Shown here: one piece after another, positions 1-19,749 of the stretch
How positions within the stretch are numbered: the first letter of the stretch is position 1
Layout of the letters: each line of letters starts with the position of its first letter
Assembly: GCF_000380165.1 (NCBI RefSeq)
Contig: NZ_KB904636.1
Coordinates: forward strand, 1-64,000
Length of the DNA stretch: 64,000 nucleotides
Direction of reading: 5' to 3'
Origin: Wenjunlia vitaminophila DSM 41686
GTDB taxonomy: Bacteria; Actinomycetota; Actinomycetes; Streptomycetales; Streptomycetaceae
Position numbers and translations under genes: made by a program
The notes under the pieces: model-generated
The model's database searches: none
Told to the model about the DNA's origin: nothing
The model's input: only the letters and a program-made list of their open reading frames with translations

Positions 1-933
1 ATGCCGAGGACGCGGGCGATACCGGCTGATGCCATGTCCGCAACGCCGGGCCACGACCGAGTACCCAAAGCACCCCACGACAGGATCGCGAGCTGCACGC
101 ATTGCCGGTCGCGGCCCTGGGTCTTGCGGTAGATCCTGGCCCACGGGCCGAACCCGCGCTGTGTGAGCGGCCGCTTCGCGCGAGCTACCTGTTTGACGGC
201 CGGGTGGTCCCCGGGCAGGCGCAGGGAGCGGCGCTGCTCGTGGCCCTCCAGGCGCTCCGGCAGCCCCAGCTTCACCGCGGCCGCCGCGGTGAGGACGATC
301 AGCGGGTCGGAGTCCTTGCCGTGCCGGTTGAGCTTGGTGGCGCCGAGGGCGGACTCCTTGAGGGTCCACTCCACCAGCTGCGGCACGGTGGTGGCTGGGC
401 AGTCCAGCACGATCCCGTCGACGCCGTACGCGGACCCGTCGCCGTCCAGCACCGCGAGCGGACCGTGCGGGAACCACGGATCCACCGCGGGCCTGGCAGT
501 CTTCCCCGCGGCCGGACCACGCGGCGACATCGCCGGGCCGCGGCCGGCGGGACGCTCGGGGGTGGCCTGGACAGCCGGGGGCCTCGGCCCTCACCGGCAC
601 TGCGGTCTCCGACTTGGTTGGCCCGGGCGCGGCCGGGCCCGTGAACGCAGCTGGCATCTCAGGCTGTGGTGCGGCGACAGGGACGGGCGTAGCCACCGGG
701 GCCAAGACGGCGGGGGCGCCGTGCGGGGGGTACTTCGCTGCCCAGCCGTTCAGCAGCCGCTGGTACGCCTCCAGACGTGGCGGCTTCGGCTCGGAGCGGC
801 CGTTCTCCCAGTTCCTCACGGTCTGTGTTGTGGACTTCAGGGCCTGCGTGATGCCGGCGGCCTCATGTAGCCGGGCGCACTCCGCCGGCGGCGGAAGCTG
901 AGGCTCCTCCGCCAACAGCGCGCCAAACCCCAC
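1..933 (-). pseudogene. tap: Tap-like telomere-associated protein, 5' part, frameshifted
   Basis: On the minus strand, conceptual translation gives blocks I recognise from Streptomyces Tap, the protein that recruits terminal protein Tpg to linear replicon ends. An N-terminal helix-turn-helix region includes NWENGRSEPKPPRLEAYQRL. An Ala/Pro linker follows, then a core with PHGPLAVLDGDG, QLVEWTLKESALGATKLNRH and FGPWARIYRKTQGRDRQC. The HTH part (roughly 933-600) and the core (roughly 560-1) are in different frames. The shift falls in a C-rich stretch of the linker near 570-580. The HTH also looks about four residues short between ITQ and ALKSTTQTV. The likely start is a GTG at 931-933. The gene continues past the left edge, so its 3' end and any tpg neighbour are not visible. 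It is probably a decayed copy, but a single homopolymer sequencing error could also explain the frameshift. Confidence 0.62.
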
Positions 934-1029
934 ACCACACCAGCACAACCCAACGGCCAGCTAACCGGCTCGCCCGCGAAGCCGCGTCGAACTCGGCGCA
1001 GGGGTAGGCGGGGGGCGCCTGGCGAACGG

Positions 1030-1064
1030 AAAGGGCCCCTGCTCATCGAGCAGGGGCCCTTTTT
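1030..1064. terminator. Strong hairpin terminator
   Basis: A 15-bp perfect stem (AAAGGGCCCCTGCTC at 1030-1044 pairing with 1048-1062) has a 3-nt loop, followed by a run of T on the plus strand. It lies just beyond the stop of the large glycosidase gene that ends at 1093 on the minus strand, and it separates that gene from tap. Confidence 0.8.
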
Positions 1065-1092
1065 GCCACAGCGAACGGAGTAGTCAGCCCGG

Positions 1093-4000
1093 CTACTCGT
1101 CGGTCACGGTGACGACCGCTCGCGGCTTGACCGATGTATCGGCGACCGCTCCAGCCACGGTGAACCATCCCTCGCTGGCCACATCGTCCTCCGAGATGGG
1201 ATCCCAGGTCACATCGACCGACCTGGTCGTGCCGTCGCTGTAGACGGCCTCCGTCTGCGCAGGCAGCGTCGGCACGACGCCGACCTTCGTGTCGACGGCA
1301 ACGGTCTTGAAGTCGACGATGGACGTCGCCTTCTGCGCCTCGTATACCTCAAACTCGGCCAAACCGCACTCCGCACCGGCTGGGTTTTCGTACTTGCCTT
1401 CGGGATCGATGGTGAATTTCACCCAGCGGGTCTCGATGGGAGCATCAAGCTTCACCACATTGTCTGGTTGGCCATCCCACTGGATATCGGTGACCCGCTT
1501 GCTGCCACCCTCCCATTCTAGGACTCCTTCCACGATCCGGTCGCCAGATCCTCCGCGATCGATCAGGTTGATGCGATCAACCTTCACCGCAGAGGGGAAG
1601 TCGAGTTTGATCCAGGGAGTCCGGTCGCTCTTCCGCGCCGCCCAGGACGTGGCTTTGGAACCGTCGATCGCCTTCGTAGCGAGATAGCGGTCGTCTTGAT
1701 CGTCGCCGTCCGGGTCGCCGTTTCGATCTCGGACCGAGGAGACCGTCACCTGTGCCTGAGTGGCAATGTTGGTGCTGTGCGCAACGATCGCTTCTCGGCT
1801 CGACCGCACCTCCACCCCATCCAACGTCACGACAGCTTCCGCAGTCGCCTGGAATGTGCTGGCGATCGGCTCATTCAACACGATGGTGTTACTGCCCGGC
1901 ACGTTCTCCAGACGGTCATCGCTGAACACGTAGGCGATCTTCGCTTTCGAAAGGTTAGCCTTCTCACCAGTGCTCAGAGTTCCCTCAACCGCTCCGATAA
2001 TGGGCTCATTCGTCTTGATGTCGCTCTTGTTGAGCGACAGTTTCACTCCCCTGAGAAATGCCGGCAGGGACAGCTGGCCGGATGCGTCCACGTCGACGTA
2101 GAAATGATCACTTGCGCGGTACCCGTCCAAGTCCGCGGTCACACTGATCTTGGTACGCCCCTTACCGGCAGCCGATACCACGCCGTCGGCCCCGACTTCG
2201 GCCACGGACGGATCACCGCTGGTGAAAGCAAGCTTGGCATCTCCCAGGTCGATTGACTGGCCGAGGAAGGAGAATCCTGCTACCTCGATCGCGGCGGAGC
2301 GGCCATCCGCATCGACCTTTGGATCCAGTTTGATGCTGCCGAGTGCGGTAAGATCCCTCAACGAGAAGGCCTGGACTTCGAGCACGTCGATCGGGCTCCC
2401 GTTCTGGCCACCACCGGGGAACGAGACTCTCACATAGCGCGCCCGCACACTGGACTTGTCCGGATCGACTGGATAGTTGTAGTAGAGGCCTTCCTGTTCC
2501 CAGGCATACAGTGTCGCGTCGCTCTCGGGAACGGCCTGCGTGTCCCTCGACGTCGGCAAACCCGCCCCAGACAGGACCGACGTTTCGTTACCCGAGGTCC
2601 ACTTGACACCATCTTCGCTGTACTCGATCTTGACCTTCTTCGGCACGTTGTAGTAGGTCACATTGTCGGCATTCGGCATGCGATGGTTGAAGAAGACGTT
2701 GACGCGAGTGAGCTCTTGCATCTTCCGCAAGTCGTAAGTGATGCTCGAAGATTCATCTCCGGCTGGTGCGACCCACTTTACGGAATTGCCTCCCGCTGCA
2801 TCATTGATAGTGCCATCGGACAACGTGCTCGCGTGCTCGCTGTCGGTGGAAACCTCCGGCACGATCCCCCGCGTGACGTTGAAATCAGGAATGAGCGTGA
2901 CGTAGTTCCGGGTTGAGGTATAGGTCTTCCCATCCACCGTGATGTCTGCCCAGTAGCTGTACATCGTCGGCTTGGCGACCTTACCGGTGAACTTCATGGT
3001 CTTGCCTTCGACGACGAATGGTGATTCGTCGGCCGGTACCTCGGTGACCACGATCTTTCCGGAAGCGTTGTCGCGCTTGCCATCAACGGTTGCGTAGTGG
3101 TACCTGATCTTCGAAGGATTGAGGATGTCGACCGCGCCGCCCTTGCGGGTGAAGGCTTTGAAGGACACAGGGACGTCCTCGTTCGTCGAGAACTGACCCC
3201 AGAACATCGCCCCGTCCGTAAGCATGTTCACGCCGACAAGCGGGAGTGCCGGCGAGATCTCGCCGTCGCGGACCTTGACCGGATAGGTGTCGGTCTTGAC
3301 TTGGAGATCATTCACACCGTCGTCATAGGTTGCGGTCACCGTGATGGTCGCGGTCCCGTCGCCGACAGCACTGACCCGGCCGGAGCCGCCCACTGTCGCG
3401 ACCCGCTTGTTGTCGCTGGTGAACTTGAGCTTCGCCGGCGCGAAGACGTTGGTGTAGTCGTTCATGTAGCTTTCGGCCCTGAGCTGCAGGGCTTCTGTCG
3501 AGGTCTGGCTGCTGAACAGCTTGACGCTCGTCATCTTGTAGTCCCTGACCGGGCTCTTCGTCCTGATCTTGATGATCGTGTCGATTGGATCAGCGGTCAC
3601 TTCGGACGTGTCAATGTTGATGTAGTACTTACTGCCGGCCCGCTCCATGGTGAACGGCAGCTCGATGCCCTCGTTCAGCCACTCCACGGCAGCGACCTTG
3701 TAGTCGAACGGACCGATCCGGCTCATCTGATCCTGGCCGCCGAAGCCCGACTTTGCTACGCCGGAGATCTGGTTTTTGATCATATGCATGTAGACGTACT
3801 GGTCACGGGCCATGGCGTAGCCCCACTCGGGACCCTGGCCGTGAGCGATAGCCTTCTGCGGATCCGTGTACCAGCCTGGTTTGAGCGTGTAGTCCATGGT
3901 GTACGGTGTGGTGCCGTACATGGACTCGCGCAGATCAGGCCCGGCGCGGTTGTCCATCCACTTCACGATCGACGCACGCATATCCGACAGTTGCTGTGAG

Positions 4001-5934
4001 GAGATCGGCACCATCGAGAAGATGTTGGTGTTGTCCAGGTTGCTGCTCAGGTTGTCCATGCCACGGGTCACGGTGACCGAGGAGTCATAGTTCATGACGT
4101 AGCCGTGACCGTATTGGTTGATCAGCTCCTTTGTCGCTTCGGCCCAGTTGTCCCGCTCATTGCCCTTGGCGTATTGGGTCCAGATGTCCAGGGCCGTGGT
4201 GTAGGGGTCATTCCATTCCTCATGGGCGACCTTCCTTCCCTGCGGCAAGATTCCGGTACGCCAGCCGCCGTTCGTGTACGGTTCGCTGTTCCAGAACGGT
4301 CGTTCGTGCAGAGTGATGTCCTGATCGCCGGTTTGCGCATTCGGGTTCGCATCTATGAGTACCCGATCGTTGTAGTTGCGGGCAGAGCTCCATGCGACGT
4401 CAGTGTTGGAGTACGACTCGGGGCCGCCATCAGCGAACACGTACCACGGGTCGTATCGCGCAACCAAACTTTGGATGTCGCTTTCAAGAATCTCGGATCC
4501 CTCGTACAGCGATGAGAGGTAGACACCGAACTTCAAACCGTAACGTTCGGCAGCCTCCTTGGCCTGCTTCACGCGGTCCTTCACATGCCAGGTGCCGTCA
4601 TCGGCCCGGTACAGCGCGTTGTACTTGTACAGCTTGTTGCTGTCGCTCGGGGTCAGGTTCGCGTTCGGCGACGGCCAGTAGTAGATGGTGTTCTGAATGC
4701 TTTCCGTCGAAAGCATGGTCATGCCCATCTCTTTGGCCTTCTGGGCCCATTCATCGTAGTTGTAGTTCGGGTCGTACAGGTTCGGCATGGTCCCTGTGGT
4801 GTGCGACAGCGCCGCCATCTTCCCGTTAATGAACCAATCGACCGGGTTCCTCTTGACCGTGATGGTGTACTGCTTTGTTGCGGAGGCGCCCTGAGCGTCA
4901 GTCACCTTCACCGTGAAGGTATAATCTTTCTGCGTCTTGCCTTGTGCACCGTCTGAGACCGTGCCGTCGATGTGACCGTCGGCTGCCAGTGTGAGCCCGG
5001 GGGGCAGTTGGCCATCGGCGACGGTCCACGAGTACCCGGGAGCTCCACCGGCGGCCTGGAAGGTGAACGGAGCGGCTTGCGGGGCGATACTCGACGTGTT
5101 TCGTTTGCCGTCGATTGTTGCGACCATTCCGACGTACGGGTTCTCGTCGTAGGCGTACGGCAAGGTGTTGGACGGGTAGTCGTTCGCCGGCACGCTCGCG
5201 TTGCGTTCCACGAAGGCACGCCGATCTACACTGAGGCCCGTCGTCACAACGGAGAGCTGATCGTTGGACATATTCGGACCCGCCACCGAGTGCGTCAGGT
5301 CGGGGATGAGGTCTCCGTTGCCATCGCACAGTCGCGTGTAGAAGCCGAGGAAGTTCTTGTTCTTGCTGTTCTTGTGCTGAATTTCGATCAGAAGTTTGTT
5401 CCAGCCCTGCTTCAGGTGCACGGGGTACTTCGTCCCGTTCTTGTTGACCCTGTTCACGGCGCTGCCTTGCTGACCAACCGGAGCGTCGTTTGCGAACAGC
5501 CGGTACACACCCGAGCCGCCAACCTGCCACTGAACGTCCTGCGTGGTCGGGCTGTAGACGTAGCTTGCTGCCAAAACCCACTTATTGACTGTGGATTGGC
5601 CTTGCTTGACGTCGAAGTAGCCCATCAGATCGTTGTAGTCGTCGTAGTTCCGATTGAAGATGCGATCGTCGAAGTACTGCCAGGTTGACGACTCGTTGCT
5701 GCTCGGGTCCGCAAGAGATGTGCCGATGGCAGGGACAACGGGTACAGAAGACTGCTCGACCACCGGATTGGAATAGGGACCGGAGACCACCCATTGGTTC
5801 AGGTACGGCGCGGTACCTCCGGTTTGAGCTGCGTGGGCTTGCGGCCCCGTGAGTGCACCGCCAACCGCAAGGGCTGCCGCGAGCGCGGTCGCGGCAGCGA
5901 CGACGCTGCACTGGATCTTGCGCAATCTCTTCAT
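1093..5934 (-). CDS. Secreted multidomain GH29-type alpha-L-fucosidase-like protein
   Basis: A 1613-residue exported enzyme. The chosen start is ATG 5934, which has AAGGA upstream and begins a clear signal peptide (MKRLRK, then an Ala-rich core, cleavage near AHA-A35). Longer upstream starts would spoil the signal. Visible domains are an N-terminal PA14-like or jelly-roll region (about 40-230), a putative Ig domain (about 288-364), a GH29-like barrel from about 366, then Ig-like domains, a first F5/8 type C-like module, a second one near 1380-1530, and a C-terminal Ig-like (Big_4-type) tail. The YDPWYVFADGGPES segment fits the GH29 nucleophile region, making Asp502 the candidate nucleophile. 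It is paralogous to the protein at 14790-19037, sharing the YFDDRI-NRNYDDY block. A candidate operator lies about 175 bp upstream. The fucosidase substrate is inferred from the family, and the true linkage cleaved is unknown. Confidence 0.78.
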   Translation of the reverse strand: MKRLRKIQCSVVAAATALAAALAVGGALTGPQAHAAQTGGTAPYLNQWVVSGPYSNPVVEQSSVPVVPAIGTSLADPSSNESSTWQYFDDRIFNRNYDDYNDLMGYFDVKQGQSTVNKWVLAASYVYSPTTQDVQWQVGGSGVYRLFANDAPVGQQGSAVNRVNKNGTKYPVHLKQGWNKLLIEIQHKNSKNKNFLGFYTRLCDGNGDLIPDLTHSVAGPNMSNDQLSVVTTGLSVDRRAFVERNASVPANDYPSNTLPYAYDENPYVGMVATIDGKRNTSSIAPQAAPFTFQAAGGAPGYSWTVADGQLPPGLTLAADGHIDGTVSDGAQGKTQKDYTFTVKVTDAQGASATKQYTITVKRNPVDWFINGKMAALSHTTGTMPNLYDPNYNYDEWAQKAKEMGMTMLSTESIQNTIYYWPSPNANLTPSDSNKLYKYNALYRADDGTWHVKDRVKQAKEAAERYGLKFGVYLSSLYEGSEILESDIQSLVARYDPWYVFADGGPESYSNTDVAWSSARNYNDRVLIDANPNAQTGDQDITLHERPFWNSEPYTNGGWRTGILPQGRKVAHEEWNDPYTTALDIWTQYAKGNERDNWAEATKELINQYGHGYVMNYDSSVTVTRGMDNLSSNLDNTNIFSMVPISSQQLSDMRASIVKWMDNRAGPDLRESMYGTTPYTMDYTLKPGWYTDPQKAIAHGQGPEWGYAMARDQYVYMHMIKNQISGVAKSGFGGQDQMSRIGPFDYKVAAVEWLNEGIELPFTMERAGSKYYINIDTSEVTADPIDTIIKIRTKSPVRDYKMTSVKLFSSQTSTEALQLRAESYMNDYTNVFAPAKLKFTSDNKRVATVGGSGRVSAVGDGTATITVTATYDDGVNDLQVKTDTYPVKVRDGEISPALPLVGVNMLTDGAMFWGQFSTNEDVPVSFKAFTRKGGAVDILNPSKIRYHYATVDGKRDNASGKIVVTEVPADESPFVVEGKTMKFTGKVAKPTMYSYWADITVDGKTYTSTRNYVTLIPDFNVTRGIVPEVSTDSEHASTLSDGTINDAAGGNSVKWVAPAGDESSSITYDLRKMQELTRVNVFFNHRMPNADNVTYYNVPKKVKIEYSEDGVKWTSGNETSVLSGAGLPTSRDTQAVPESDATLYAWEQEGLYYNYPVDPDKSSVRARYVRVSFPGGGQNGSPIDVLEVQAFSLRDLTALGSIKLDPKVDADGRSAAIEVAGFSFLGQSIDLGDAKLAFTSGDPSVAEVGADGVVSAAGKGRTKISVTADLDGYRASDHFYVDVDASGQLSLPAFLRGVKLSLNKSDIKTNEPIIGAVEGTLSTGEKANLSKAKIAYVFSDDRLENVPGSNTIVLNEPIASTFQATAEAVVTLDGVEVRSSREAIVAHSTNIATQAQVTVSSVRDRNGDPDGDDQDDRYLATKAIDGSKATSWAARKSDRTPWIKLDFPSAVKVDRINLIDRGGSGDRIVEGVLEWEGGSKRVTDIQWDGQPDNVVKLDAPIETRWVKFTIDPEGKYENPAGAECGLAEFEVYEAQKATSIVDFKTVAVDTKVGVVPTLPAQTEAVYSDGTTRSVDVTWDPISEDDVASEGWFTVAGAVADTSVKPRAVVTVTDE

Positions 5935-6462
5935 GCTACGTCCTTGCACTTGTCGAGATAGCTGATGCCCTGTCGTTGCAGACCTCCAGCAGCCCATCCG
6001 CCCGCACGGCCGTCTTCAAGTCGCGGGGCCGAAGCCTCCCCCTGCCTACACCACCGCATCAGAGATACGAGGATGTTTCGCATGCAACCTAAGGCAGCGA
6101 GAAGTAGATCAGATCTATTCTTGCCTGGCAAGGGTTCTTGCAGACGAACACGTGGCGCGCCGGCAAGCAGCGTCCCCAGGCAATGGTCGGGCGCCCACAA
6201 CGGCCCCATGCCGCACGATCGTCGACTCGTGATGGGCTTCCATGCCCTCGTGCGCCGAGTATTGATCGGATCCATGCCCGGCACCGACAGGCGCCGTCGC
6301 CCTATGCAGCTGATCAATCCAGCAGCCTGCTGGCCCCTCGGCGTCCGGGGGTGGAGGGCCCGTGACCACCTGATCCTCGCTGTTGTCGATGCAACGGGAT
6401 GGAAAGGTGGCCACGGCCTCATGGGAGACGGCATGACGTTCGGCTAGGACTTGTCCGGCCGA
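5935..6462. other. Intergenic region upstream of the GH29-like gene
   Basis: No convincing gene. It holds the ribosome binding site and presumably the promoter of the minus-strand GH29-like gene, plus the palindrome at 6105-6117. The right end merges into an IS5-type relic. Confidence 0.5.
6105..6117. promoter_or_regulatory. Candidate GntR operator, site A
   Basis: The perfect 6-1-6 inverted repeat TAGATC-A-GATCTA lies about 171-183 bp upstream of the GH29-like start. On the minus strand it reads TAGATCTGATCTA. Eleven of 13 positions match site B (9403-9415) and eleven of 13 match site D (11046-11058). Binding by the local GntR regulator is inferred from this sharing. Confidence 0.55.
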
Positions 6463-6868
6463 TCATGCACGGAGCCAGATGACGAGGGCTGCGGTGGTCG
6501 CGGTCCCGAGGAAGACGTAGCCGCGCTTGTCGTAGCGGGTGGCCACTGCTCTGGCGTGCTTGAGTCGGTTGACCGCCCGTCCGACAGTGTTGCGCTTCTT
6601 GTGCCGTTCTTCGTCGAAGCCTGGCGGCCGTCCGCCGCGTGCCCCTTTGCGCAGGCGGGCGGCCTGGCTGTCGGTCTTCTCCGGAATCGTGTGCCGGATG
6701 CCCCGGCGCCGTGGATACTCGCGGCACGGGCCGTTGCTGTAAGCCTTGTCCGCCGCGAGGATGTCAGGCTTCTTGCGCGGCCTACCCGGCCCGATCCGCG
6801 GGACGCGAATCCTTTCCAGCACGCGCGTGAACTGCGTGCAATCCGCCCTCTGCCCCGGTGTGACGATC
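6463..6868 (-). mobile_element. IS5-family transposase, C-terminal fragment
   Basis: The minus-strand frame encodes the C-terminal half of an IS5-type DDE transposase: VTPGQRADCTQF, then ADKAYSNGPCREYPRRRGI, IPEKTDSQAAR, and the terminal ATRYDKRGYVFLGTATTAAL block with its stop at 6463. The catalytic N-terminal part is missing. Similarity stops abruptly near 6866, where a second, oppositely oriented transposase fragment begins. It is a non-functional relic. No complete terminal inverted repeats were identified. Confidence 0.75.
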
Positions 6869-6955
6869 AGGGACAAGCAGCGCAACGTGGTCGAACGCAG
6901 CTTCAACCGCCTGAAGCAGTGGCGAGGCATCGCCACCCGCTACGACAAGACCGCT
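6863..6955 (+). mobile_element. Second IS5-type transposase relic, opposite orientation
   Basis: A short plus-strand stretch translates to RDKQRNVVERSFNRLKQWRG followed by IATRYDKTAD, the terminal block of an IS5-type transposase. It abuts the minus-strand fragment at 6463-6868 head to head. Beyond 6955 no transposase similarity continues. About 290 bp between here and the GH35 stop at 7255 hold nothing I recognise. Confidence 0.6.
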
Positions 6956-7254
6956 GATTCCTCGCAGCGGCCAGGCCGGACCTCCATCTTCGGCACAACG
7001 CACGACCCGCAGGCCCGCCCATTGATCGGGCCCTTCCGCAACCCCCCCGACACGGACGCGCGAAGGCCGAAACCGCAACTCTTGACCATTGCTCCCGCCG
7101 CCCGCACCGACCAAGCGACAGAGTGCCGATCGACACTTCTCGGCGCATCAGAAACCGACCGCGTTCATCCGTACGCGAGTGGGGGCGTCAGGTGTACACC
7201 GGCAGTACTGGCCCGGATAAGAACGTACCCGAAGCTATCCCGTCGGTCCGAGGC

Positions 7255-9024
7255 TCAGCCCGTGGGGCCCAAGTCCGCTGTGTCGCGGATCTCGATCCGC
7301 CCACCAGATCTGTGCAGTTCCAGGATCACGAGTTCGTTGCGGCCAGCCCGCCACACCGGAGCAGGCGCGTAAAGGGTGCGCTGCGGGCCTCGATCCCAAT
7401 AGCGGCCGAGTGCGAAGCCGTTCAGCCAGACCTGTCCCTTGGTCCAGCCTGGCAGGGCGAGAAAGCCGTCGGCTGGGTCTGGGATCTCCACTTCTGCACG
7501 ATGAAAAGCCGGGCCTTCGATGGCTTCGGCTGCCCCGTACCGCAGGGGGGACAGATCGGTCAGCGGGAGGGGGCGGATCTCCCAGTCGAACTGGTACTGG
7601 GTGTCGATCCGAACCCCTCCGCTGATGCCCTTGCGGTCCTCCAACCACGGACCGTAGTTGACCCGCCCCATGTTCTCTACCAGCAAGTCGAGCTCGCCTC
7701 CGGTCTCGGGGACACTAATCGACAGCGCGTCCAGCGACCCCGTTCGCTCCAGGATGCCAAGCGGCTCGCCGTCCAGGAAAACCTGGGCCCGGTCGGCGAG
7801 GCCGTGCACGCGCAGAGTCGAGTCACGGAAGGGGCCGCGAAGCCGCGTGCGGTAGTGGATCAGTCCGAATGACTGGCCCAGAGCCTCCATCGGCTCGGGC
7901 GAGAGCCGCTGCTGGGGGGTGGACAACGCGTCCAAGCAGTACGCCAGCGCCACCGTACCGTTTGGGTGCACCACCTGCGGGGCGAGCCGTTCCGGCGGCT
8001 CGGGCACCTCGTACCCGATCGGGCCGCGATACCGCTGGATCACCTCACGGAAGGCGTAGAACTTCTCGGTCAGTTCTCCTGCCTCGCCGACCGGCGCGTC
8101 GTAGTCGTAGCTGGTGCAGGTCGGCTGGTACTCGGTCTCGTCGTGGTTCGCGCCGTTCCACCAGCCGAAGTTCGTGCCGCCATGGCCCATGTAGATGTTG
8201 ACCGAGACGCCGCGGGCCAGCATCCACTCCAGGTCCGCGGCGGCCTCGCCTGCGTCCCGCACGTGGTGGTGCTCACCCCAGTGGTCGAACCATCCGTGCC
8301 AGTACTCGGAGCACACCAGCGGCCCGGCCGGCTGATGGCGGCGCAGTGTGGCGAGCGACTCCTTCGGCCGCGAGCCGAATGTGGCGGTCGCCAAGGTGCC
8401 AGGCAGGACGCCGCCACGCAACACGCCGTCGGTGGCGCCGTCGGCGGTGAAGAGTGGGCAGTCCACGCCTCGTCGGATCAGCCCTTGGCGCAGGTGGTCG
8501 AGGTAAGCGGTGTCGTGGCCGTAGCTGCCGTACTCGTTCTCGACCTGGACGGCGACCACCGGTCCGCCGTGACTGGCCAGCAGCGGACGCAGGACCGGGA
8601 CCAATTGGTCGAACCAGGCGTCCACGGCGTCCAGGTAGCGCTTGTCGGTACGGCGCAGACGCAGCCCAGGGTCGGCCAGCAACCAGGCCGGGAGGCCACC
8701 GAACTCCCACTCGGCACAGATATAGGGCCCGGGCCGCACGATCACGTCCAGGTCGAGCTGTGCGGCGGTGCGGATGAAGCGGGTGACATCTGCTGGACCG
8801 GAGAAGTCGGCCTGGTCGGGAGTCGGCTGGTGGAGGTTCCAGGCGATATAGGTCTCGACGGTGTTGACGCCCATGGCGCGCAGGCGAAGCAACCGGTCCT
8901 CCCACAGCTCGGGGTGGACGCGGAAGTAGTGGATGGCGGCGGAGATGATCTGGTGGGGCTGACCGGCGCGCAGGAAACCGTGCTCGGTCACGGTCAGCTC
9001 GGCGACGGCGCGGGGATTGGTCAC
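7255..9024 (-). CDS. GH35 beta-galactosidase, intracellular
   Basis: A 589-residue glycoside hydrolase family 35 enzyme without signal peptide, predicted to remove terminal beta-galactosyl residues from imported oligosaccharides. The barrel starts at once with ISAAIHYFRVHPELW and VIVRPGPYICAEWEFGGLP. VENEYGSYG carries the acid/base Glu164, and VCSEYWHGWFDHWG carries the nucleophile Glu240. The N-terminal barrel is followed by galactose-binding-like beta domains (about 390-589). The start is a GTG at 9024 with a modest GGGAA upstream. It reads divergently from the gntR gene at 9730, and two candidate GntR operators lie in the gap. Its place between two GH29-like genes and an ABC transporter suggests that the imported glycan carries galactose as well as fucose. 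Confidence 0.88.
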   Translation of the reverse strand: MTNPRAVAELTVTEHGFLRAGQPHQIISAAIHYFRVHPELWEDRLLRLRAMGVNTVETYIAWNLHQPTPDQADFSGPADVTRFIRTAAQLDLDVIVRPGPYICAEWEFGGLPAWLLADPGLRLRRTDKRYLDAVDAWFDQLVPVLRPLLASHGGPVVAVQVENEYGSYGHDTAYLDHLRQGLIRRGVDCPLFTADGATDGVLRGGVLPGTLATATFGSRPKESLATLRRHQPAGPLVCSEYWHGWFDHWGEHHHVRDAGEAAADLEWMLARGVSVNIYMGHGGTNFGWWNGANHDETEYQPTCTSYDYDAPVGEAGELTEKFYAFREVIQRYRGPIGYEVPEPPERLAPQVVHPNGTVALAYCLDALSTPQQRLSPEPMEALGQSFGLIHYRTRLRGPFRDSTLRVHGLADRAQVFLDGEPLGILERTGSLDALSISVPETGGELDLLVENMGRVNYGPWLEDRKGISGGVRIDTQYQFDWEIRPLPLTDLSPLRYGAAEAIEGPAFHRAEVEIPDPADGFLALPGWTKGQVWLNGFALGRYWDRGPQRTLYAPAPVWRAGRNELVILELHRSGGRIEIRDTADLGPTG

Positions 9025-9402
9025 GGCTGTTCCCGGGTGCTCAGACGGTGGTGGTCGTGGCGGCGAGGAGGGTGGCGACCGCCCACTGGGTCTTCAGAAG
9101 GCTGGGCGCAGGTGCTGAAGGCAGCGTGGCGTCTGGGTCGGAGGAGGTGCAGGGCATGTATTTGGCGGTTCCTAGGCCAGTCGGTTGTTGGCGCGATCGG
9201 CGGTGGACAAGGCCCGGCGACCACCTGGAGGCCGGCCTTGATCCCCTTCTCTCTCGCACTGAAGGCGTCGGTGGGAGAGCCCCCTTCGGGGAGATGTCGG
9301 TGGGTAACCGCTGCTCCCATCGGCGACTGGTTGCTGGGCCCGATGAGCGGCCCCGGCGTGCAGGGACCAGTTACTCAGTCACGCACACGATGCACGGATA
9401 GA

Positions 9403-9415
9403 TAGATATGATATA
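9403..9415. promoter_or_regulatory. Candidate GntR operator, site B
   Basis: TAGATATGATATA in an AT-rich island. It differs from the minus-strand reading of site A at only two of 13 positions, both C to A. It lies about 380 bp upstream of GH35 and 315 bp upstream of the gntR start. Confidence 0.5.
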
Positions 9416-9648
9416 TGTCCGATGGTGGTGGTGGATAGGGCTGGCTTCTCCGGGGGTCCCCTGGAGGGGTCCGTTGCGGTCGCGGGGTCGAGGTGGGTGG
9501 CCGTCTGGGGATGCTCCCGCGGCAGGGCGGGAAGGGGGAAGGTCACGGTGGGGGCGGGGTAGGGAGGTCTCGCTGGGACAGGGAAGAGTCTGCGGTCACT
9601 GGATCCTGGCGTCAAGGGTTTGAATGTGATTCACTGACCCCGGAACAC

Positions 9649-9661
9649 TTGATATATCAGA
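9649..9661. promoter_or_regulatory. Candidate GntR operator, site C (autoregulation)
   Basis: The perfect 10-bp palindrome TGATATATCA (9650-9659) sits about 70-80 bp upstream of the gntR TTG start. It shares TGATATAT with site B, and its reverse strand reads TCTGATATAT, close to TCTGATCTAT at site D. Its position suggests that the regulator controls its own gene. Confidence 0.5.
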
Positions 9662-9729
9662 AACATCCAGTGGGGGTTGAGGCTGGCGCGACGAACGGCG
9701 GCCTCAAGAGCGAAGCAAGGGGGAAGCCG

Positions 9730-10506
9730 TTGACCGGCCCAGAAAAGACCACCGCGCCCGCGTCCGCGCCCGAGGGCACAGAGCGTGGTTACCGTCCCGG
9801 GTACGAGGTCGCGGCGGAGCGCATCCTCGAGTACGTCATCCAGGCGGGCCTTCAGCCCGGCGCCCGGCTCCCCACCGAAAAAGACCTCGCAGACGAGGTA
9901 CAGATGAGCCGGACCGTCGTCCGGGAAGCGGTGAAAATCCTCTCCGCCCTGGGGCGACTGTCCGTACACAAGGGCCGCGGCATCTACGTGGCCGAACCCG
10001 ACCAGTCCTCCTGGCAACAGTCACTCGCCAACTTCCTCCCCGCAGACCTGCGCCAAGTGGACGAACTCTTCGAGTTCCGCCGCCACCTGGAAACCACCAC
10101 CGCCCACCTGGCCGCACAACGAGCCACCCCCGCACAGGTCAAAGCAGTACGCGAAGCCGCACAACAGTCCGCCCAAGCCGCACAACAAGACAACATCGAC
10201 GCCTTCACCCGCGCCGACGAAGCCTTCCACACCGGCATCGCCACCGCCGCCGGAAACATGTTCTTCGCCGCCACCGTCGACGCCATGCGACGCCTCCAAC
10301 GCCAGGTCACCACCATAGGACTAGCCGGCATCGCAGGCGGATCCCTCCACGTCGCAGCCACCCAACACCAAGCCATCGCCGAAGCCATCGCCACCGGAGA
10401 AACCAACCGCGCCCAAACCCTGATGGCCGAACACATCGACCTGACCGCCCAGCAATTCCAACAAGAGATCTGGCGCCGCGTCACACCCGACAACACCCAC
10501 CCCTAA
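9730..10506 (+). CDS. FadR-subfamily GntR transcriptional regulator
   Basis: About 258 residues. The winged helix at about 20-85 has the FadR-type pattern LPTEKDLADEVQMSRTVVREAVKIL, with a wing GRGIYVAEP. An all-helical FCD effector domain (about 100-245) follows, with the DELFEFRRHLE and FHTGIATAAGN segments typical of the family. The TTG at 9730 is preferred because AAGGGGGAA sits six bases upstream; longer frames to 9493 have no coding look. It sits between the GH35 gene and the ABC transporter operon and is flanked by related AT-rich palindromes. It is therefore the likely sugar-responsive regulator of the locus, and repression relieved by an imported sugar acid or oligosaccharide is the usual mode for this family. 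Confidence 0.85.
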   Translation: MTGPEKTTAPASAPEGTERGYRPGYEVAAERILEYVIQAGLQPGARLPTEKDLADEVQMSRTVVREAVKILSALGRLSVHKGRGIYVAEPDQSSWQQSLANFLPADLRQVDELFEFRRHLETTTAHLAAQRATPAQVKAVREAAQQSAQAAQQDNIDAFTRADEAFHTGIATAAGNMFFAATVDAMRRLQRQVTTIGLAGIAGGSLHVAATQHQAIAEAIATGETNRAQTLMAEHIDLTAQQFQQEIWRRVTPDNTHP

Positions 10507-11045
10507 ACCCAAGTCCCCGGGAAGCGCGGGGCCAAAGGACGCGCCGCAGCTCCGCATGGCGGATCGATGCGGGCGTGCAGCTAGCCGCATTTTGACATGC
10601 TCGCGCCATGTCGCTCCTCTCCGGGGGTACGCGCTTGGCCACCGCGTTCACCACAGCCCAACCCCACGGACTCATCGCCGTCCCGCCTGACCGAGGCGAT
10701 CCACCAGCGGCCACCCAACGTCTTTCGGGTAGGCGACTGCTGTTCGTGTGCCACGTCGAGCTCTTCCACGGACGGGGACAGGGCTGCTTCCACCGGCGGG
10801 TCCGCGAGCGCGACCAGGGTCGAACGGTCGGAGCGCTCGACGAGTTCCACGGGGAGGCGGCGGCGCAGGCGGCCGGAGCCTGCAGCGGAGCACCCACGGA
10901 ACTCTGGAGCACCTTCTGGCGGTGTGGACACCCGCCCGAGCATGAGGATCCTCCCCCTCGGCGCCCCTACGAAGGGGCGGACTGGCTGACTACAGAGACC
11001 GCGCTGGAGGCAATGTTCCACATCTATTGCCCTCAAGCCCCTCAG
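10507..11045. other. Intergenic stretch without recognisable gene
   Basis: No RNA gene or protein family recognised. Overlapping frames are open on both strands, as usual at this G+C content, but none has a convincing start, ribosome binding site or domain. Confidence 0.4.
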
Positions 11046-11058
11046 TGAATCTGATCTA
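11046..11058. promoter_or_regulatory. Candidate GntR operator, site D
   Basis: TGAATCTGATCTA matches site A (read on the minus strand) at 11 of 13 positions, including the run ATCTGATCTA. It ends 5 bp before a consensus-like -35 element, a position suited to control of the transporter operon. Confidence 0.55.
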
Positions 11059-11063
11059 TAGCC

Positions 11064-11092
11064 TTGACGTCTCCAGGGCCACACAAGATACT
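11064..11092 (+). promoter_or_regulatory. Likely promoter of the ABC transporter operon
   Basis: TTGACG (11064-11069) and GATACT (11087-11092) are 17 bp apart, a good housekeeping-sigma-factor pattern, about 160 bp upstream of the binding-protein start. Candidate operator D lies immediately upstream. Confidence 0.5.
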
Positions 11093-11252
11093 GAGCCTCA
11101 CCGTGACACGGGCGCTGAGTTGCTGAATATTGCTACGCCCGCAGGAGCACAGCCTCGTCACGTGACCTTCGAACCGAAGCCCGGCCGCGCAGTCTAGGCC
11201 ACTGGAGAGTCGGATTCATCGACGGAGATCCGCAACAGGAAGGCATACTTGG

Positions 11253-12635
11253 ATGCTAGCTAAGTTGGCCATGTGGTCTGGCCGGACATGCGACGGGGTG
11301 AGGGAGCGGCGTCCGCTTCGGCGGCAGCCATCAGTTACGGGCAAGAAGCCGTTCAGGCTGCGGGCCCTGATCGGAAGCCTGACCGCGGCCACCCTGGTAC
11401 TACCGTTGGCCGCCTGCGGGGGGAGCGGCGACGACAAGTCCGCCGATGGCACTGTCCACTTGGAGTTCTGGGGCTGGGCCCCCGGATACGACAAATCGGT
11501 TGATTTGTTCAATTCTACTCACAAGGACATCCAAGTCACCTTCAAGACGTTGCCCTCCGGTAGCCAGGGTGGGTACGACAAGATGCTCTCGGCGGTGAAG
11601 GCAGGCAATGCCCCCTGCCTGGCGCAGGTCGGCTTCGAGTCCGTGCCCACTCTCCTGATCGAGGGTGCCCTGGAGGACGTCACCGAGGCGGCCGCCGGCG
11701 CAAAGGACAAGTTCGTCCCGTGGACGTGGAACCAGGTCACCGTCGCCGGCAAGACCTATGGCATCCCGGTCGACACGGGCCCCATGGCGATGTACTACCG
11801 CAAGGACGTCTTTGACAAGTACGGCATCGCGGTACCGACGACCTGGGACGAGTACGCCGAGGCGGCCGAAAAGCTGCACAAGGCCGACCCGGATACGTAC
11901 ATCGTGAACCTGCGGGCGATCACGCTGTCCGGACTGGCCTGGCAGAAGGGTGCCAAGTGGTTCAGCACCGAAGGCGATACGTGGCGGGTCGCCGTCAATG
12001 ATCCCCAGACCCAGCAACTGGCGGACTACTGGCAAGGCCTAGTGGACAAGAAGCTGGTCGCCACGGATCAGGGCTACAGCCCCCAGTGGTGGAGCAAGCT
12101 GCAGTCCGGCAAGGTGGCCACGGCGATCGGGGCGGTGTGGCTGAACCCGCTGATAACACAGAACGCTCCCAAGGCCGAGGGCAAGTTCGCCGTCGCCCCG
12201 ATGCCGCAGTGGACGAAGGGTGAGAAGAAGTTCGGCAACGACGGTGGCGGCAGCACGGCCGTGCTCAAGGGCTGCCAGTACAAGGACGAAGCGGTCGAAT
12301 TCGCCACCTGGATGAGTACCAACCCCGACAGCCTGAAGAACCTGATCACCAAGACCGGCATCTACCCGGCCGCCACCGCCGGACTCCAACTGCCCGAGGT
12401 GAGCGCAGGGGTGGAGTACTACGGCGGCCAGAACATCTACGAGGTGTTCGCCGAGGCCGCCCAGAACACCGACGTGAACTGGCAGTGGGGTCCCACGCAA
12501 TCACAGTTCGGCACCGACCTGGACGAGGCGACCAGCAAGGCGTACGCCGGTAGTGGCACACTGCCCGACGCATTCGACAGCGTGCAGGAGAAGACGCTCG
12601 CGGCGATCAAGTCGAAGGGCCTGAAGACGGGATGA
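11253..12635 (+). CDS. CUT1 ABC transporter sugar-binding lipoprotein
   Basis: A 460-residue extracellular solute-binding protein of the carbohydrate uptake family 1. A lipoprotein signal ends with LPLAAC-GGSG, so the Cys would be lipidated and the protein held on the outer face of the membrane. The mature part starts VHLEFWGWAPGYDKSVDLFN and shows the usual two-lobe pattern, with GIPVDTGPMAMYYRKDVF in the first lobe. ATG 11253 has AGGAAGG nine bases upstream but gives an unusually long, Arg-rich region before the signal core. An internal GTG near 11297 is the alternative. The stop overlaps the start of the first permease (ATGA), so the genes are one operon. Substrate is not readable from sequence; context suggests a fucose- or galactose-containing oligosaccharide. 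Confidence 0.87.
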   Translation: MLAKLAMWSGRTCDGVRERRPLRRQPSVTGKKPFRLRALIGSLTAATLVLPLAACGGSGDDKSADGTVHLEFWGWAPGYDKSVDLFNSTHKDIQVTFKTLPSGSQGGYDKMLSAVKAGNAPCLAQVGFESVPTLLIEGALEDVTEAAAGAKDKFVPWTWNQVTVAGKTYGIPVDTGPMAMYYRKDVFDKYGIAVPTTWDEYAEAAEKLHKADPDTYIVNLRAITLSGLAWQKGAKWFSTEGDTWRVAVNDPQTQQLADYWQGLVDKKLVATDQGYSPQWWSKLQSGKVATAIGAVWLNPLITQNAPKAEGKFAVAPMPQWTKGEKKFGNDGGGSTAVLKGCQYKDEAVEFATWMSTNPDSLKNLITKTGIYPAATAGLQLPEVSAGVEYYGGQNIYEVFAEAAQNTDVNWQWGPTQSQFGTDLDEATSKAYAGSGTLPDAFDSVQEKTLAAIKSKGLKTG

Positions 12636-13648
12636 CCCGCGACGTCGATTCCCTTCCGGGGCCGGTCGTGCACCCTCCAACGCAATCAGAGGGTCACGGC
12701 CGGCCCCGGCTACCCACCGCCCCGGGGCGGAAGCGGCGGCCGGCCGGCAGCCGGACCCGCAACATGCTCGAGAGCCGACGCAACCGGGCCGCCGGTGTGC
12801 TGCTCGCACCGTTCGCCGTGCTGTTCCTGGCTGTGTTCGTAGTCCCGATCGGATACGCCGTGTACCAGAGCCTGTTCCGGGTGCAGCGCTCCGGACTCGG
12901 GCTCGAACCACCTAAGACCGTGTTCGCCGGCCTGGACAACTACACGCGGGTGCTCGCCGACGACTCTTTCCTCACAGGCGTGGGCAGAGTTCTGGCGTTC
13001 GGCGTGGTCCAGGTGCCGATCATGCTGGGGCTGGCCCTGCTGCTGGCCCTGCTGCTGGATTCCAGAGTGGCACGCCTCAAGCGCTTCTTCCGCCTGGCGT
13101 ACTTCCTGCCGTTCGCGATACCCGGTGTGATCGCGGCGATTCTGTGGGCCTTCCTGTACGTGCCCGGCATCAGCCCGCTGAATGATCTCGGCAAGAGCGT
13201 GGGCGCCGACGTCGACTTCCTCTCCGCCGACATGATCCTCTTCTCGATCGGCAACATCGTCACCTGGTCCTGGACCGGCTACAACATGCTGATCCTCTAC
13301 ACCTCGCTGCAGTCCGTCCCTCAGGAGCTGTACGAGGCGGCCGAGCTGGACGGGTGCTCCGGCTTTCAGATCGCCTGGCACATCAAGGTGCCTCTGGTAC
13401 GCCCGGCACTCACCCTGACCGGCGTCTTCTCCATCATCGGCACGCTACAGCTGTTCGGCGAACCGATGGTGCTACGCCCCATGACGTCCGCGATCAGCAC
13501 CGACTACACCCCGGTGATGCTCTCCTACCAGGCGGCCTTCGGCCTCAACGACTACAACTTCGCCGCCGCTGTCGCGGTGGTCCTCGCCCTCGCGACGTTC
13601 ACCCTGTCCTACGGTTTCCTGCGCCTGAGCACACGAGGATCACGATGA
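12632..13648 (+). CDS. CUT1 ABC transporter permease, MalF/UgpA type
   Basis: A 338-residue inner-membrane permease. A positively charged N-terminus (about 1-45) is followed by six predicted helices. The EAA loop that contacts the ATPase reads ELYEAAELDGCSGFQIAWHI near residue 240. It overlaps the binding-protein gene by ATGA and in turn overlaps the next permease by ATGA, so the three genes are translationally coupled. No ATPase is encoded nearby, as is usual in Streptomyces, where a shared MsiK-type ATPase serves CUT1 systems (established for the genus, inferred here). Confidence 0.88.
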   Translation: MTRDVDSLPGPVVHPPTQSEGHGRPRLPTAPGRKRRPAGSRTRNMLESRRNRAAGVLLAPFAVLFLAVFVVPIGYAVYQSLFRVQRSGLGLEPPKTVFAGLDNYTRVLADDSFLTGVGRVLAFGVVQVPIMLGLALLLALLLDSRVARLKRFFRLAYFLPFAIPGVIAAILWAFLYVPGISPLNDLGKSVGADVDFLSADMILFSIGNIVTWSWTGYNMLILYTSLQSVPQELYEAAELDGCSGFQIAWHIKVPLVRPALTLTGVFSIIGTLQLFGEPMVLRPMTSAISTDYTPVMLSYQAAFGLNDYNFAAAVAVVLALATFTLSYGFLRLSTRGSR

Positions 13649-14553
13649 GCAAGCAGTCCACAGCCCCTCACCGCCGGTCCGGCCCGGGGCGTCCGGCGCT
13701 GCCCGCCCGTCGCCGTGGCTCACCAGCCGCCCAACTGAGCACCACCGTCCTGCTGCTCGCGGTCGCGGGCTACTTCCTGATGCCGATCTGGTGGCTGTTG
13801 GTCTCGTCGACGAAATCCAGCGGTGATCTGTTCGGCACCAACGGCTTCTGGTTCGGCTCGAGCATCCGCATTGGCGATAACCTGTCCAAGGTCTTCCACC
13901 ACAGCGACGGCGCCTTCACCGGCTGGCTCCTCAACAGTCTGCTGTACTGCGGTGCCGGGGCCCTGGTGGCCACACTCACCGCCGGGATGGCCGGGTACGC
14001 CTTGGCCAAGTACCCCTTCAAAGGTCGAGAAGGCGTTTTCGCGCTGATCCTTGGCGCGGTGCTGATCCCACCGCCGCTGCTCGCCCTTCCGCTGTACCTG
14101 CTCGCCTCAGCAACCGGCATCGCCAACACGTACTGGGCGGTGCTGATTCCGAGCGCCGTAACGCCCTTCGGGGTCTACCTCGCCCGCGTGTACGCTGCGG
14201 CCTCCGTACCCGACGAGCTGACCGACGCCGCCCGGGTTGACGGTGCGGGCGAACTTCGGATCTTCTTCACCATCGGGCTGCGGTTGATGTCTCCCGCTCT
14301 GGTCACCATCTACCTCTTCCAGTTCGTTGGGATCTGGAACAACTTCTTCCTGCCGCTGATGATGCTCGCGGACGACAAACTCTGGCCGCTCACCCTGGGG
14401 CTCTACTACTGGAACAGCCAGCTTCGATCCCAACCCTGGTACGACATCGTGGTCACGGGCTCGCTGATTTCGGTAGTTCCCCTCGTGATCGCATTCCTCA
14501 CCCTGCAGCGGTTCTGGCGCTCAGGACTGTCCGCCGGAAGCCTCAAGACCTGA
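13645..14553 (+). CDS. CUT1 ABC transporter permease, MalG/UgpE type
   Basis: A 302-residue second permease subunit. ATG 13645 overlaps the previous stop and follows ACGAGGAT. The EAA loop reads DELTDAARVDGAGELRIFFT near residue 195, and IWNNFFLPLMML is characteristic of MalG-type subunits. It should pair with the 12632 permease to form the membrane channel. The gene ends about 236 bp before the second GH29-like gene on the same strand; I saw no terminator hairpin between them, so readthrough is possible. Confidence 0.88.
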   Translation: MSKQSTAPHRRSGPGRPALPARRRGSPAAQLSTTVLLLAVAGYFLMPIWWLLVSSTKSSGDLFGTNGFWFGSSIRIGDNLSKVFHHSDGAFTGWLLNSLLYCGAGALVATLTAGMAGYALAKYPFKGREGVFALILGAVLIPPPLLALPLYLLASATGIANTYWAVLIPSAVTPFGVYLARVYAAASVPDELTDAARVDGAGELRIFFTIGLRLMSPALVTIYLFQFVGIWNNFFLPLMMLADDKLWPLTLGLYYWNSQLRSQPWYDIVVTGSLISVVPLVIAFLTLQRFWRSGLSAGSLKT

Positions 14554-14789
14554 CGCCGCGCGCAGGACCTCCGGCGATGGGCGTCGGTGACCCGCGCTTG
14601 GCCATGGTTCGTGCTCGCCGCGGGGGCGGGCGCGCTGGTGACCTCCGAGGCTGCGTCCAGCACTGGGACGGCGGAACTGCGGTACGTCCCGGGCACGGTG
14701 AAAGCGGTCGGGATGCGTCGAGCTCCTGCACGCTGACGGTAACGCCTGCAATCCGGAATAGCGGAGCATCGCATAGAAAGGTCCTCGAA

Positions 14790-17700
14790 ATGACCAAGCG
14801 ATATCGTAGTACTGCATTTCTCCTAGGGCTGATGATAATCGCATCATTCCTTTTCAGCGTACCCACAGCCAAGCAGGCAGACGCGCAGCAGGTCACGGGG
14901 AACGCTCCGTTCATCAACTCGTGGCTCGTGTCGGGGCCGTTTGAGGCGCCGGTCGTCGACAAGCAGTATGAGTGCGAAGCCGGAACGCTGCCGGTCGACG
15001 GGAAGACGAAGATCACTCCGAAGACCGGTGAATCGCTGGCCTTCGGCGACGAAAGCAGGAAGTGGGAGTACTTCGACGACCGTATCTACAACCGGAACTA
15101 CGACGACTACCAGGATCTCTACGGGTACTACGCCGTCAAGAAGGGCGTCGACACCAGGAACAAGTACGTGTACGCGCACACGTACGTCTACAGCCCAGTC
15201 GAGCAGCAGGCATATTTCAACGTCGGGGCGAGTGGTTCGTACCGGCTGTATGTGAACGACAGGTGTCTGACGGGCCCAAGCACTCCGGTGGAAGTGCAGA
15301 AGGACCTGACGAAGCAGGCAGTCCAGCTACAGGCGGGCTGGAACAGGCTGATGATTCAGATCAAGCACACCTACACGGAGGACGTGAATTCAAACGGTGT
15401 GCCGATTGCCAAGGACCAGAACGTTGCCTATCTCGGGTTCTACGGCCGGGTGGCGGATCGGTCCGGCAACAAGATCAATGGTCTGGTGAACTCCGTGACA
15501 GGGCCGTCGGGAAACCTGCAGATCGTGACGCAGGGTCTCTCGACTGACGATGCGATCGAGACGCCGCTCCCAAAGGGCGACATGCCGGTCGGCTACAAGG
15601 AGTGGCCGTACGTCTGGAACAAGTCGGTGACCAACAACAAGTACGGCGTCGCTGCTTCGACTTTCCAGTTCATGGCTGCTGGTGGGGCGCCGGGCTATAC
15701 GTGGAAGATCGTCGATGGGGCATTGCCCGATGGTCTGGAGCTGAATCCTGACGGGTCAATCGCGGACGGGCTGGTCGACGGGAAAGTCGCTCTGAACAGC
15801 ACCAAGGGAGTCGTCAGCATCAACGCCAAACCAGGCGACTACCCCTTCACTGTCCAGGTGGCTGACAAGGAAGGGACCACTGCTTCGAAAGACTTCACCA
15901 TCACGGTGAAGGAACGTCCCAACAAGTGGTTCGAAGAAGGCAGGGTCGGCGCATTGACCCATGCCACCCCGACCTACAACTACTACGTGGACCCGAACTA
16001 CTCCGTTGATCGATGGGCAGCGAGAGCAAAAAGTCAAGGGCACTCGCTGGTGTCAGTCGAAGCGCTGCAGCAGAACTACAACTGGCCGTCCAAGTTCGCA
16101 GATCCGAAGCATATCAGAGCGGAATACGTCCCCAAGGATGAGAATGGCAAGGTAGTAGACGGGCTGAAGCCGTTCGAGGAAGCGGTGAAACGTCACGGCA
16201 TGAAGTTCGGCTTGTACTACGCAACCGAGGGTGGCGGCTTGCAGCACTACTCCACTGACGTGTTTATGCAGAATGTGGAGGACCTTATTCTCCGTTACGC
16301 TCCGGAGTACCTGTACTTCGACGGTCCACAGGCAATGCCAAATGCAAACTACGACGTGATGTACAGCGTGGTACGCGATTACAGCGATGGCATCATCGTG
16401 AACTCAAACGCGTGGGGGGTGGAGTACGGCGATCCGGACCTGAGAACCGACGAGGCATCTGGTATCTATTCCAATACGGGGCCGAATCATCTTCTGAAGC
16501 GGACGTCCATGGAACCGTGGAAGATGATCCACACGAAGAACATGATGTCGCCTTACTACGGTAAGCGCGACGACTTCAGGCAGGTCTCGAAGGAGATGCT
16601 GAGTAATGCCGGTCGGGGCAATGTCGACAACAACGATCAGTCGGTTCTCGACAGTCGGGGACCGAACTGGGACTCTCCTCAAGAGATCGCCACGAGGTAC
16701 CCGAAGGCAGTCCAGGAGTTCATCGACGTAAGAGAGAACCTCGCTGACTGGTTCGAGGGAAAGCGCGGGGCGGAGAGGCACGAGTCCACGACGGGCACGA
16801 CGCCGTACTTCCTGGCGGGCTACGGCTACGAGGACGATGGACGTGGAAATTATGAAAAGTTCGCTCACCCGAACAGCGCGACTGGTCCGCAATGGGGATA
16901 CGCAACCGCCAGGGACAACAACATCTACCTTCACATCATGAAGGGGCCGGACGGCAAGAAGGGCTTCGACGCGCTTATCAACAACTCCTTGACCATCCGT
17001 CCGGTCAACGATCGTGTGACGTCCGTGAGATGGTTGAACAGCGACGTCCCGGTCACGTCGTTCAGCCAGAAGGGCGACAGTCTGACCATCAGCCTGGCCG
17101 ACGTCCAGGAAGATCCGATCGACACGATCATCAAGATCGTGACCGACAGTCCTGAGCGCAAGTACAAGTTGACCAACGTCGATGTGACCGGTGAGCAGCT
17201 GGCGCAGGGGGCGTTGAAGGTCAAGGCCGAGGGCTACATGACGTACCCCGCGCTGAAAGCCAAGCTTTCAGGCGTGACCTACAGCAGCGCGAATCCTGGG
17301 GTAGCGGCGGTCAAGCCTAGTGGAATCGTGCATCCTGTGTCGGACGGGACAACGAGCATCACAGTACGAGGCACTCATGAGGGCGTGACCAAGCAAGGCA
17401 CGTTGAAGGTGAAGGTCAGAGACGGCCTCGTCTATGTCCCCGACATGATCGGCGCATCGTTGCTGGTGGAAGGCAAGGAGGCCTACGGTGAGTTCGGCCT
17501 GAACGACGGGCTCAAGTACGAGATCGAAGGCAGGTCGGCCACGGGTGGTCCCATCGGTTTGGATGCGGCACAGATCAAATGGCATGGCGGCATCGTCGAT
17601 CTGGCTGGCGGTGATAAATACGAGCCGGTTGCCATCAAGGAAGTAGACACGTTCGCGTTCGAGAAGAACAAGGTCATCACCCCGCAGGTCGACGCGCCCA

Positions 17701-19037: not shown

Positions 19038-19057
19038 GCCACCCGCCGGCCACATGC

Positions 19058-19091
19058 GCGTGTTGCCTCCCCCTCCGGGGAGGCAACACGC
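19058..19091 (+). terminator. Hairpin terminator after GH29-like gene
   Basis: A perfect 15-bp stem (GCGTGTTGCCTCCCC at 19058-19072 with 19077-19091) and a 4-nt loop begin 20 bp after the stop. There is no T-run, as is common for actinomycete terminators. Confidence 0.75.
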
Positions 19092-19749
19092 GGCGTTCCA
19101 TGCCTGGTGCCCACGAAGGAGGAAGGAGGAGCATCGAGCAATCAACCTGCTAGCCGCATAGCAACATCCGCTTGGTCACCGCATGACAGCGACCACAGCC
19201 CCCGTCCCGCACCTGCTACCAGGGCACCCACACCGATCCCGCTGACGCCCATCCACTGCCACCCCACCGCGGACTCACACCCTCAGCACGGAACGCATAA
19301 CCCCAGCTCACGCACCCCGACCACCTCGATCAAAGCGCCCATTTGCACCTCTCAGCGAACCAGCAACACGCCAGGCCAGCAGCCGCCCTGTGCACCAACA
19401 AGCCCCCTCGGGGCGTCAGCAGCTGGGCGTACACGGTCGCTTCGACGCCGAGGCCGACCGGGTTACCCCAGACGGGGAAGACGGCGCGGATACGGGCGGG
19501 GGCATCCGCCTGCAGCCGCGGGCCGCCGTGCAGAAGCTGTGGGACCCGGGCAAGTCGGCGCTCGCCGGCCGGCTTCAGGAAGCTGGCGGACTTGGCGGGG
19601 CTGAGAACCGAGTGGACGTACGGCAACATCCGACCGTATGTTCCGGTGTCCGCGCGCGTCTTCGCACGCGCGCCGGCACCAGTGCACGCGCGCCGGTTCG
19701 GGGAGAACCGCGCGCCGGCTCGATCTCGTCTTCTCGGGGGGACTTTCTC
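19092..19749. other. Non-coding stretch before DUF4328 gene
   Basis: No supported gene. The part around 19297-19410 is repeated imperfectly at 20712-20826 on the other side of the DUF4328 gene. Just upstream of that gene is a run of GCGCGC-rich inverted motifs (about 19650-19720) that could form secondary structure. Confidence 0.45.
19361..19380 (+). repeat. Direct repeat, left copy
   Basis: An exact 20-bp block identical to 20774-20793, within about 110 bp of imperfect similarity (roughly 19297-19410 and 20712-20826). The copies lie in the same orientation on both sides of the DUF4328 gene. Confidence 0.7.

Follow-up and report, generated by a model that had tools for sequence, protein, structure and literature searches.

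At the left edge of the window, i.e., the 64,000-base stretch of DNA analyzed here, fragments of a gene for the telomere-associated protein (Tap) lie in two different reading frames. This raises the question of whether they are a decaying gene copy close to the end of a linear replicon, or a working gene split by an error in the sequence. The window spans positions 1–64,000 of the 182,126-base contig C3, in an assembly of 6.43 Mb and 111 contigs. A broken tap is represented by its N-terminal half at window positions 3–922, on the minus strand. It is very probable that this stretch is half of a tap pseudogene situated in subtelomeric DNA, with the intact tap–tpg pair of the same assembly most likely acting in trans.

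The NCBIfam profile telomere_Tap (NF047542) matched the first 948 bases of the window in two frames of the minus strand (Table 1), which places both pieces in this family. Their scores are below the family cut-off of 600 bits, and there is no single open frame. The first-pass annotation had noticed such Tap blocks in two frames without stating the strand. An intact 714-residue Tap from a linear Streptomyces uncialis plasmid was used as the reference for alignment, and the region in which the frame changes was found to include positions 570–580, where a frameshift had been noted earlier. Within this region, no homopolymer is longer than five bases, and the two of that length are G runs on the plus strand (558–562 and 577–581). 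The ancestral Tap of this relic is a putative binder of the telomeric 3′ overhang, as judged from its family, and would have been required for linear replication. A search of the window against Rfam gave no matches.

Table 1. Coordinates of the tap and tpg features in the window and on contigs C70, C3, and C30.
Feature	Position	Strand	Evidence or remark
Tap profile 8–144	window, query 1–948	minus	79 bits, E 3.2e-22
Tap profile 140–315	window, query 3–530	minus	251.6 bits, E 2e-74
Tap residues 13–141, first frame, with helix-turn-helix	window 541–921	minus	alignment to S. uncialis Tap and profile
Tap residues ~125–318, second frame	window 3–587	minus	S. uncialis Tap alignment and profile; continues on C70 23036–24118 (minus)
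Region of reading-frame change	window 541–587	minus	residues 13–141 end at 541; residues 125–318 begin at 587
In-frame 5-codon deletion inside the helix-turn-helix	window 838–843 (site 840/841)	minus	S. uncialis alignment
95-base contig overlap	window 1–95	.	identical to C70 24024–24118 and to the first 95 bases of C30; inner border of inferred repeat
Tap profile matches on C70	C70 23996–24118; 23455–23997; 23166–23459; 23027–23221	minus	profile search
Tpg relic	C70 21574–21967	minus	two stops and a frame break
Intact tap	C3 83238–85355	minus	1098 bits, cut-off 600
Intact tpg	C3 82677–83234	minus	284 bits, cut-off 90
Third tap–tpg pair, decayed	C30 ~6915–7954 (L028)	minus	profile and tblastn

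The relic leaves the contig at the left edge of the window, where the first 95 bases exactly repeat those at the right end of C70. Homology to tap is colinear over this C3/C70 join: nucleotides 36–954 of the S. uncialis gene were aligned on C3 and nucleotides 862–1940 on C70, the latter part with three gaps totalling three positions. Three frame changes occur on C70 in addition to the one in the window, making four overall, and the alignment stops at approximately residue 647 of 714, about 67 C-terminal residues being gone. Approximately 1.1 kb separate the tap remnant from a broken tpg downstream, and a further open reading frame (ORF) is called in this interval. For the broken tpg, the first 53 of 183 profile positions were not found, and its larger piece scores 137.6 bits, above the family cut-off of 90 despite two stops. 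The tap–tpg relic extends across C70 and C3 at 21.6–25 kb from the telomere described below and reads outward.

One intact tap–tpg pair was detected approximately 107 kb from the telomere, on C3 at 82,677–85,355, which agrees with the earlier suggestion that the broken copy is redundant. Residue 114 of the intact Tpg is threonine, as is residue 115, by plain count and not by alignment to the Tpg of S. lividans, for which T114 is given as the priming residue (PMC3572947). A third pair, on C30, is decayed, and its tpg and tap pieces are separated by an unrelated ORF of 130 residues for which neither Pfam nor NCBIfam gave a match at E 0.01. The Tap match of this pair is weak (15 bits), and searches at E values up to 10 gave weak Tap or Tpg matches in 12 of 14 control genomes, none of them above the cut-off; the C30 match was counted because it is backed by tblastn (58% identity over 52 residues, E 7e-10). 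All three copies are on the minus strand of C70 or of contigs whose left end joins C70, so that, provided these joins are correct, they point to the telomere. When the family was surveyed, Tap was matched in 90 of 121 genomes. Twelve one-contig genomes are among the survey matches listed, ten with copies within about 1.3 Mb of the record end and pointing outward (sizes rounded) and two (G057 and G104) with copies in mid-record. Partial copies, some with stops, also occur among the matches listed for other genomes (e.g., G117, G120, and G040), so this genome is not the only one with decayed copies. One scan placed relatives of the intact Tap at eight loci, five in Streptomyces and three in Streptacidiphilus. 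The surroundings of the intact pair were also inspected. A caspase-like protein (NF047832, EACC1-associated caspase, 240 bits) is encoded directly upstream of it on the minus strand (C3 85523–88132; L029 10523–13132), and a gyrB-type gene scoring above the gyrB equivalog cut-off, possibly a second gyrB on this arm, lies on the same strand approximately 3.4 kb upstream of the intact tap (C3 88707–90782; L029 13707–15782).

By sequence identity, the intact pair is of another lineage than the type I pair represented by plasmid pS1D4-14.1, to which its Tap and Tpg are 66% and 61% identical, respectively. The relic Tap is closer to type I in four of its five pieces, which are 80–90% identical to the Tap of pS1D4-14.1 and 61–80% identical to the intact Tap of its own genome. 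For the fifth, N-terminal piece, which was compared with two proteins only, identity was 64% to S. uncialis Tap and 46% to the own intact Tap. The Tpg relic on C70 (21574–21967) looks mosaic, one part being slightly nearer to the own intact Tpg and the end nearer to type I: for its larger piece, identity is 73% to the intact Tpg of this genome and 68% to type I, and for its end piece 53% and 80%, respectively. The slightly greater similarity of the larger piece to the own intact Tpg would speak against a clean, single-lineage origin of the broken pair.

If tap were intact and functional, the frameshift would be a sequencing or assembly error. The two runs of five G within the region of frame change and substitutions that are still gene-like are the observations that speak for such an error. 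Third codon positions account for 56–57% of the differences between the relic and the S. uncialis gene, for 55–61% in five related Taps (L060, L061, L066, L067, and L095, not all confirmed to have intact frames; L096 and L097, which gave no plus-strand match, were left out), and for 48% in the own intact Tap. Substitutions alone show no decay, whereas indels, stops, and truncation do. The three further frame changes on C70, the 5-codon deletion in the helix-turn-helix, the missing C-terminus, and the broken tpg downstream are what the error hypothesis leaves unexplained, and its probability is negligible. Because of the four frame changes, the deletion, the lost C-terminus, and the broken tpg, the tap relic is a pseudogene and not one misread base. 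The first-pass annotation had called it a decaying copy and had advised re-reading the raw data for a C-run; with several independent lesions that concern is moot, and a sequencing error in the run was rejected on the frame changes, the deletion, and the truncation. Selection seems to have still acted on the gene when most of the substitutions accumulated, and the breaks are probably recent. Alternatively, the relic might have arisen by duplication and decay of the genome's intact tap, as the two pairs share gene order and direction and the larger Tpg piece leans, by its 73% against 68%, toward the own intact Tpg. However, all four Tap pieces compared with both are closer to type I, and a duplicate was rejected on the Tap identities; only a very slim chance is left to it.

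C70 (24,118 bases) starts with a telomere, which consists of a terminal palindrome and CTTG-loop hairpins followed by an inward helicase gene. Its first bases, CCCGCGGAGCGGG, form a 13-base palindrome, the complement of which is the 13-nucleotide palindrome I quoted for a plasmid of S. dengpaensis and conserved in the archetypal telomere (PMC7205883). Six hairpins with a stem of at least 5 and a loop of 3 or 4 were found in the first 200 bases, three with CTTG on the 3′ strand and one with CAAG; the same script gave CTTG in four of seven hairpins at the end of pS1D4-14.1. The C70 telomere is in this respect of the CTTG-loop kind that PMC7205883 links to type I Tap–Tpg. When folded as single-stranded DNA, the start of C70 gave a z-score of −6.0, and none of 200 shuffled sequences was as stable. 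In the plasmid collection, 84 records matched its first 300 bases. Among the 60 listed, every match lay within 243 bases of the record end and 58 lay within 100, and base 1 of NZ_CP119146 aligned with base 1 of C70. Of these 60 listed records, 41 also belong to the 60 best for the Tap relic, which was matched in 342 records in total. The first 400 bases were matched in 6 of the 100 genomes searched, including the own genome. The helicase gene, which contains helicase-associated domains, begins at C70 542 and reads inward. It matched only one place in the assembly, as did the telomere sequence. Inward ttrA helicases are described at most such replicon ends (PMC8743542), and C70 shows the outer telomere with inward helicase expected of a Streptomyces terminal inverted repeat.

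Since C70 starts with a telomere, the window begins approximately 24 kb from it and is subtelomeric, as the first-pass annotation had supposed. To the left, where it had advised looking for tpg and terminal palindromes, C70 holds the Tpg relic and the 13-base palindrome. It had also named an intact frame and a location far from any replicon end as outcomes that would contradict it. Neither was found, the distant location being rejected on the telomere of C70. This placement helps readers treat the remaining window as subtelomeric DNA. G+C content is approximately 64% in window 1–20000 and 69–74% in the other 10-kb steps of C3, which suggests that this low-G+C part, just inside the inferred terminal repeat, is recently acquired DNA. 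Between 17.2 and 20.9 kb on C70 (L027 13025–16674), the DNA resembles a Tn7-like element of Streptomyces plasmids (TnsA-like protein, AAA ATPase, TniQ, and transposase), and is 3.6 kb long compared with 6.4 kb in the best match, NZ_CP107888.

The 95 bases at the join were matched on C3, at the end of C70, and at the start of C30, and nowhere else among the 40 first-look candidates scored per search. C30, at its right end, overlaps the beginning of C62 by exactly 95 bases as well, and 95 was therefore taken as the overlap length of the assembly. The simplest reading is that C70 is a collapsed terminal inverted repeat of approximately 24.1 kb, with C3 and C30 as its two arms; its two-copy state is read from these overlaps. 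The tap relic crosses the border of the repeat on the C3 side and ends at the border on the C30 side. Beyond it, C30 carries what looks like a truncated IS256-family element, of which the tail remains: C30 90–260 has matches in 61 plasmid records, and 6 of the 10 listed have an IS256 transposase annotated under the match. We infer that the repeat arose when the end of the C3 arm was copied onto an arm broken inside this element. The right end of C3 differs in its overlap: 202 of its bases recur in reverse orientation on C51, and C67 has a similar stretch, i.e., a repeat. A stretch of 300 bases is identical between C30 79898–80197 and C45 637–936. It lies in what looks by eye like an ispG gene and may reflect a recent duplication at this end of C30, its right end.

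Two points of this arrangement may be read otherwise. C70 might be single-copy and joined to C3 only, with no 24-kb inverted repeat, if C30 has the 95 bases for some other reason; a short contig leading into C30 may be absent from the assembly. An unrelated repeat would then have to be exactly as long as the assembly overlap, and the 95-base matches found are just those of C3, the C70 end, and the C30 start, which makes a single-copy C70 quite improbable. C70, C3, and C30 might also form a large linear plasmid, with the window near its end. C70-like telomeres and Taps of the relic type are frequent in Streptomyces plasmid records, a collection that holds no chromosomes and is hence biased, and the three plasmid records fetched are linear. 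On the other side, panD has its sole match in the assembly on C30, and the replicon is for this reason probably the chromosome. The terminal helicase and telomere each occur in one place, and the whole assembly has a single intact tap and a single intact tpg, so that a separate linear chromosome would show no end machinery of this kind. Taps of the relic type are not confined to plasmids: relatives were found in 181 of 297 genomes, and Taps 79–81% identical to the window piece are encoded on one-contig genomes of chromosome size (e.g., G009, G177, G208, and G263). A plasmid is accordingly unlikely, if slightly less so than a single-copy C70. A plasmid-like relic and telomere do not establish the integrated linear-plasmid end offered by the first-pass annotation, as the same type of Tap is carried by chromosome-sized genomes and the replicon is probably the chromosome. 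The preferred reading remains a chromosome end with a terminal inverted repeat.

According to the model in PMC3572947, replication leaves a 3′ overhang that folds and is bound by Tap. Tap recruits Tpg, and Tpg primes the fill-in of the end and remains linked to the 5′ end. The original pair with the type I-lineage Tap would have worked in this manner. This type I-like pair is now dead, and the telomere of C70 is most likely maintained in trans by the one intact tap–tpg pair. Type I Tap–Tpg is associated with CTTG loops, and how specific the association is was raised as a question in PMC7205883. Here, the CTTG telomere is kept and the only intact Tap–Tpg of the assembly is not type I. A linear chromosome may have lost the type I pair proposed to be specific for its CTTG-loop telomere and may now cap it with a divergent Tap–Tpg (66% and 61% identical to type I), a tentative proposal to which we give somewhat less than even chances. 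If true, telomere recognition would be looser than the proposed telomere–protein co-evolution requires, and the strain would offer a natural test. Whether a telomere type needs its own Tap–Tpg could be tested directly in this assembly, which combines a CTTG telomere with a dead type I-like pair and an intact one from a different lineage.

For these soil bacteria, a decayed tap near the chromosome end is nothing unusual; of mild interest is that the assembly has a CTTG telomere and that its sole intact Tap–Tpg is not type I. Pseudogenes of tpg in the terminal regions of Streptomyces replicons are already published (PMC3572947), and PMC7205883 describes a tap pseudogene that is truncated, exchange of telomeres with plasmids, and terminal repeats that have been homogenised. 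The tpg pseudogenes are likewise defective terminal-protein genes in exchange-prone ends, but those tested in PMC3572947 are lone tpg genes without tap, whereas tap and tpg decay together here. The type II set described in PMC7205883 likewise has a tap pseudogene, truncated to 92 residues, beside tpg; it differs in that a Tpg is retained and a ‘Tap-alt’ gene was proposed as the replacement. In the same paper, terminal repeats are proposed to be homogenised by a process like break-induced replication, of which the expected outcome is also a copied end of one arm with a sharp inner border. In the present case, the repeat is visible through assembly overlaps only and has an apparent truncated IS256-family tail at its C30-side border. 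The type I tap–tpg of pS1D4-14.1 and of sub-clade I Streptomyces chromosomes (PMC7205883) has the same tap-then-tpg order and also points outward. The end of pS1D4-14.1 is also a CTTG-loop telomere, to which C70 is 80.5% identical over 79% of 300 bases. Unlike in the type I pair of that plasmid, both genes are broken here, and tap extends over the inner edge of the inferred repeat.
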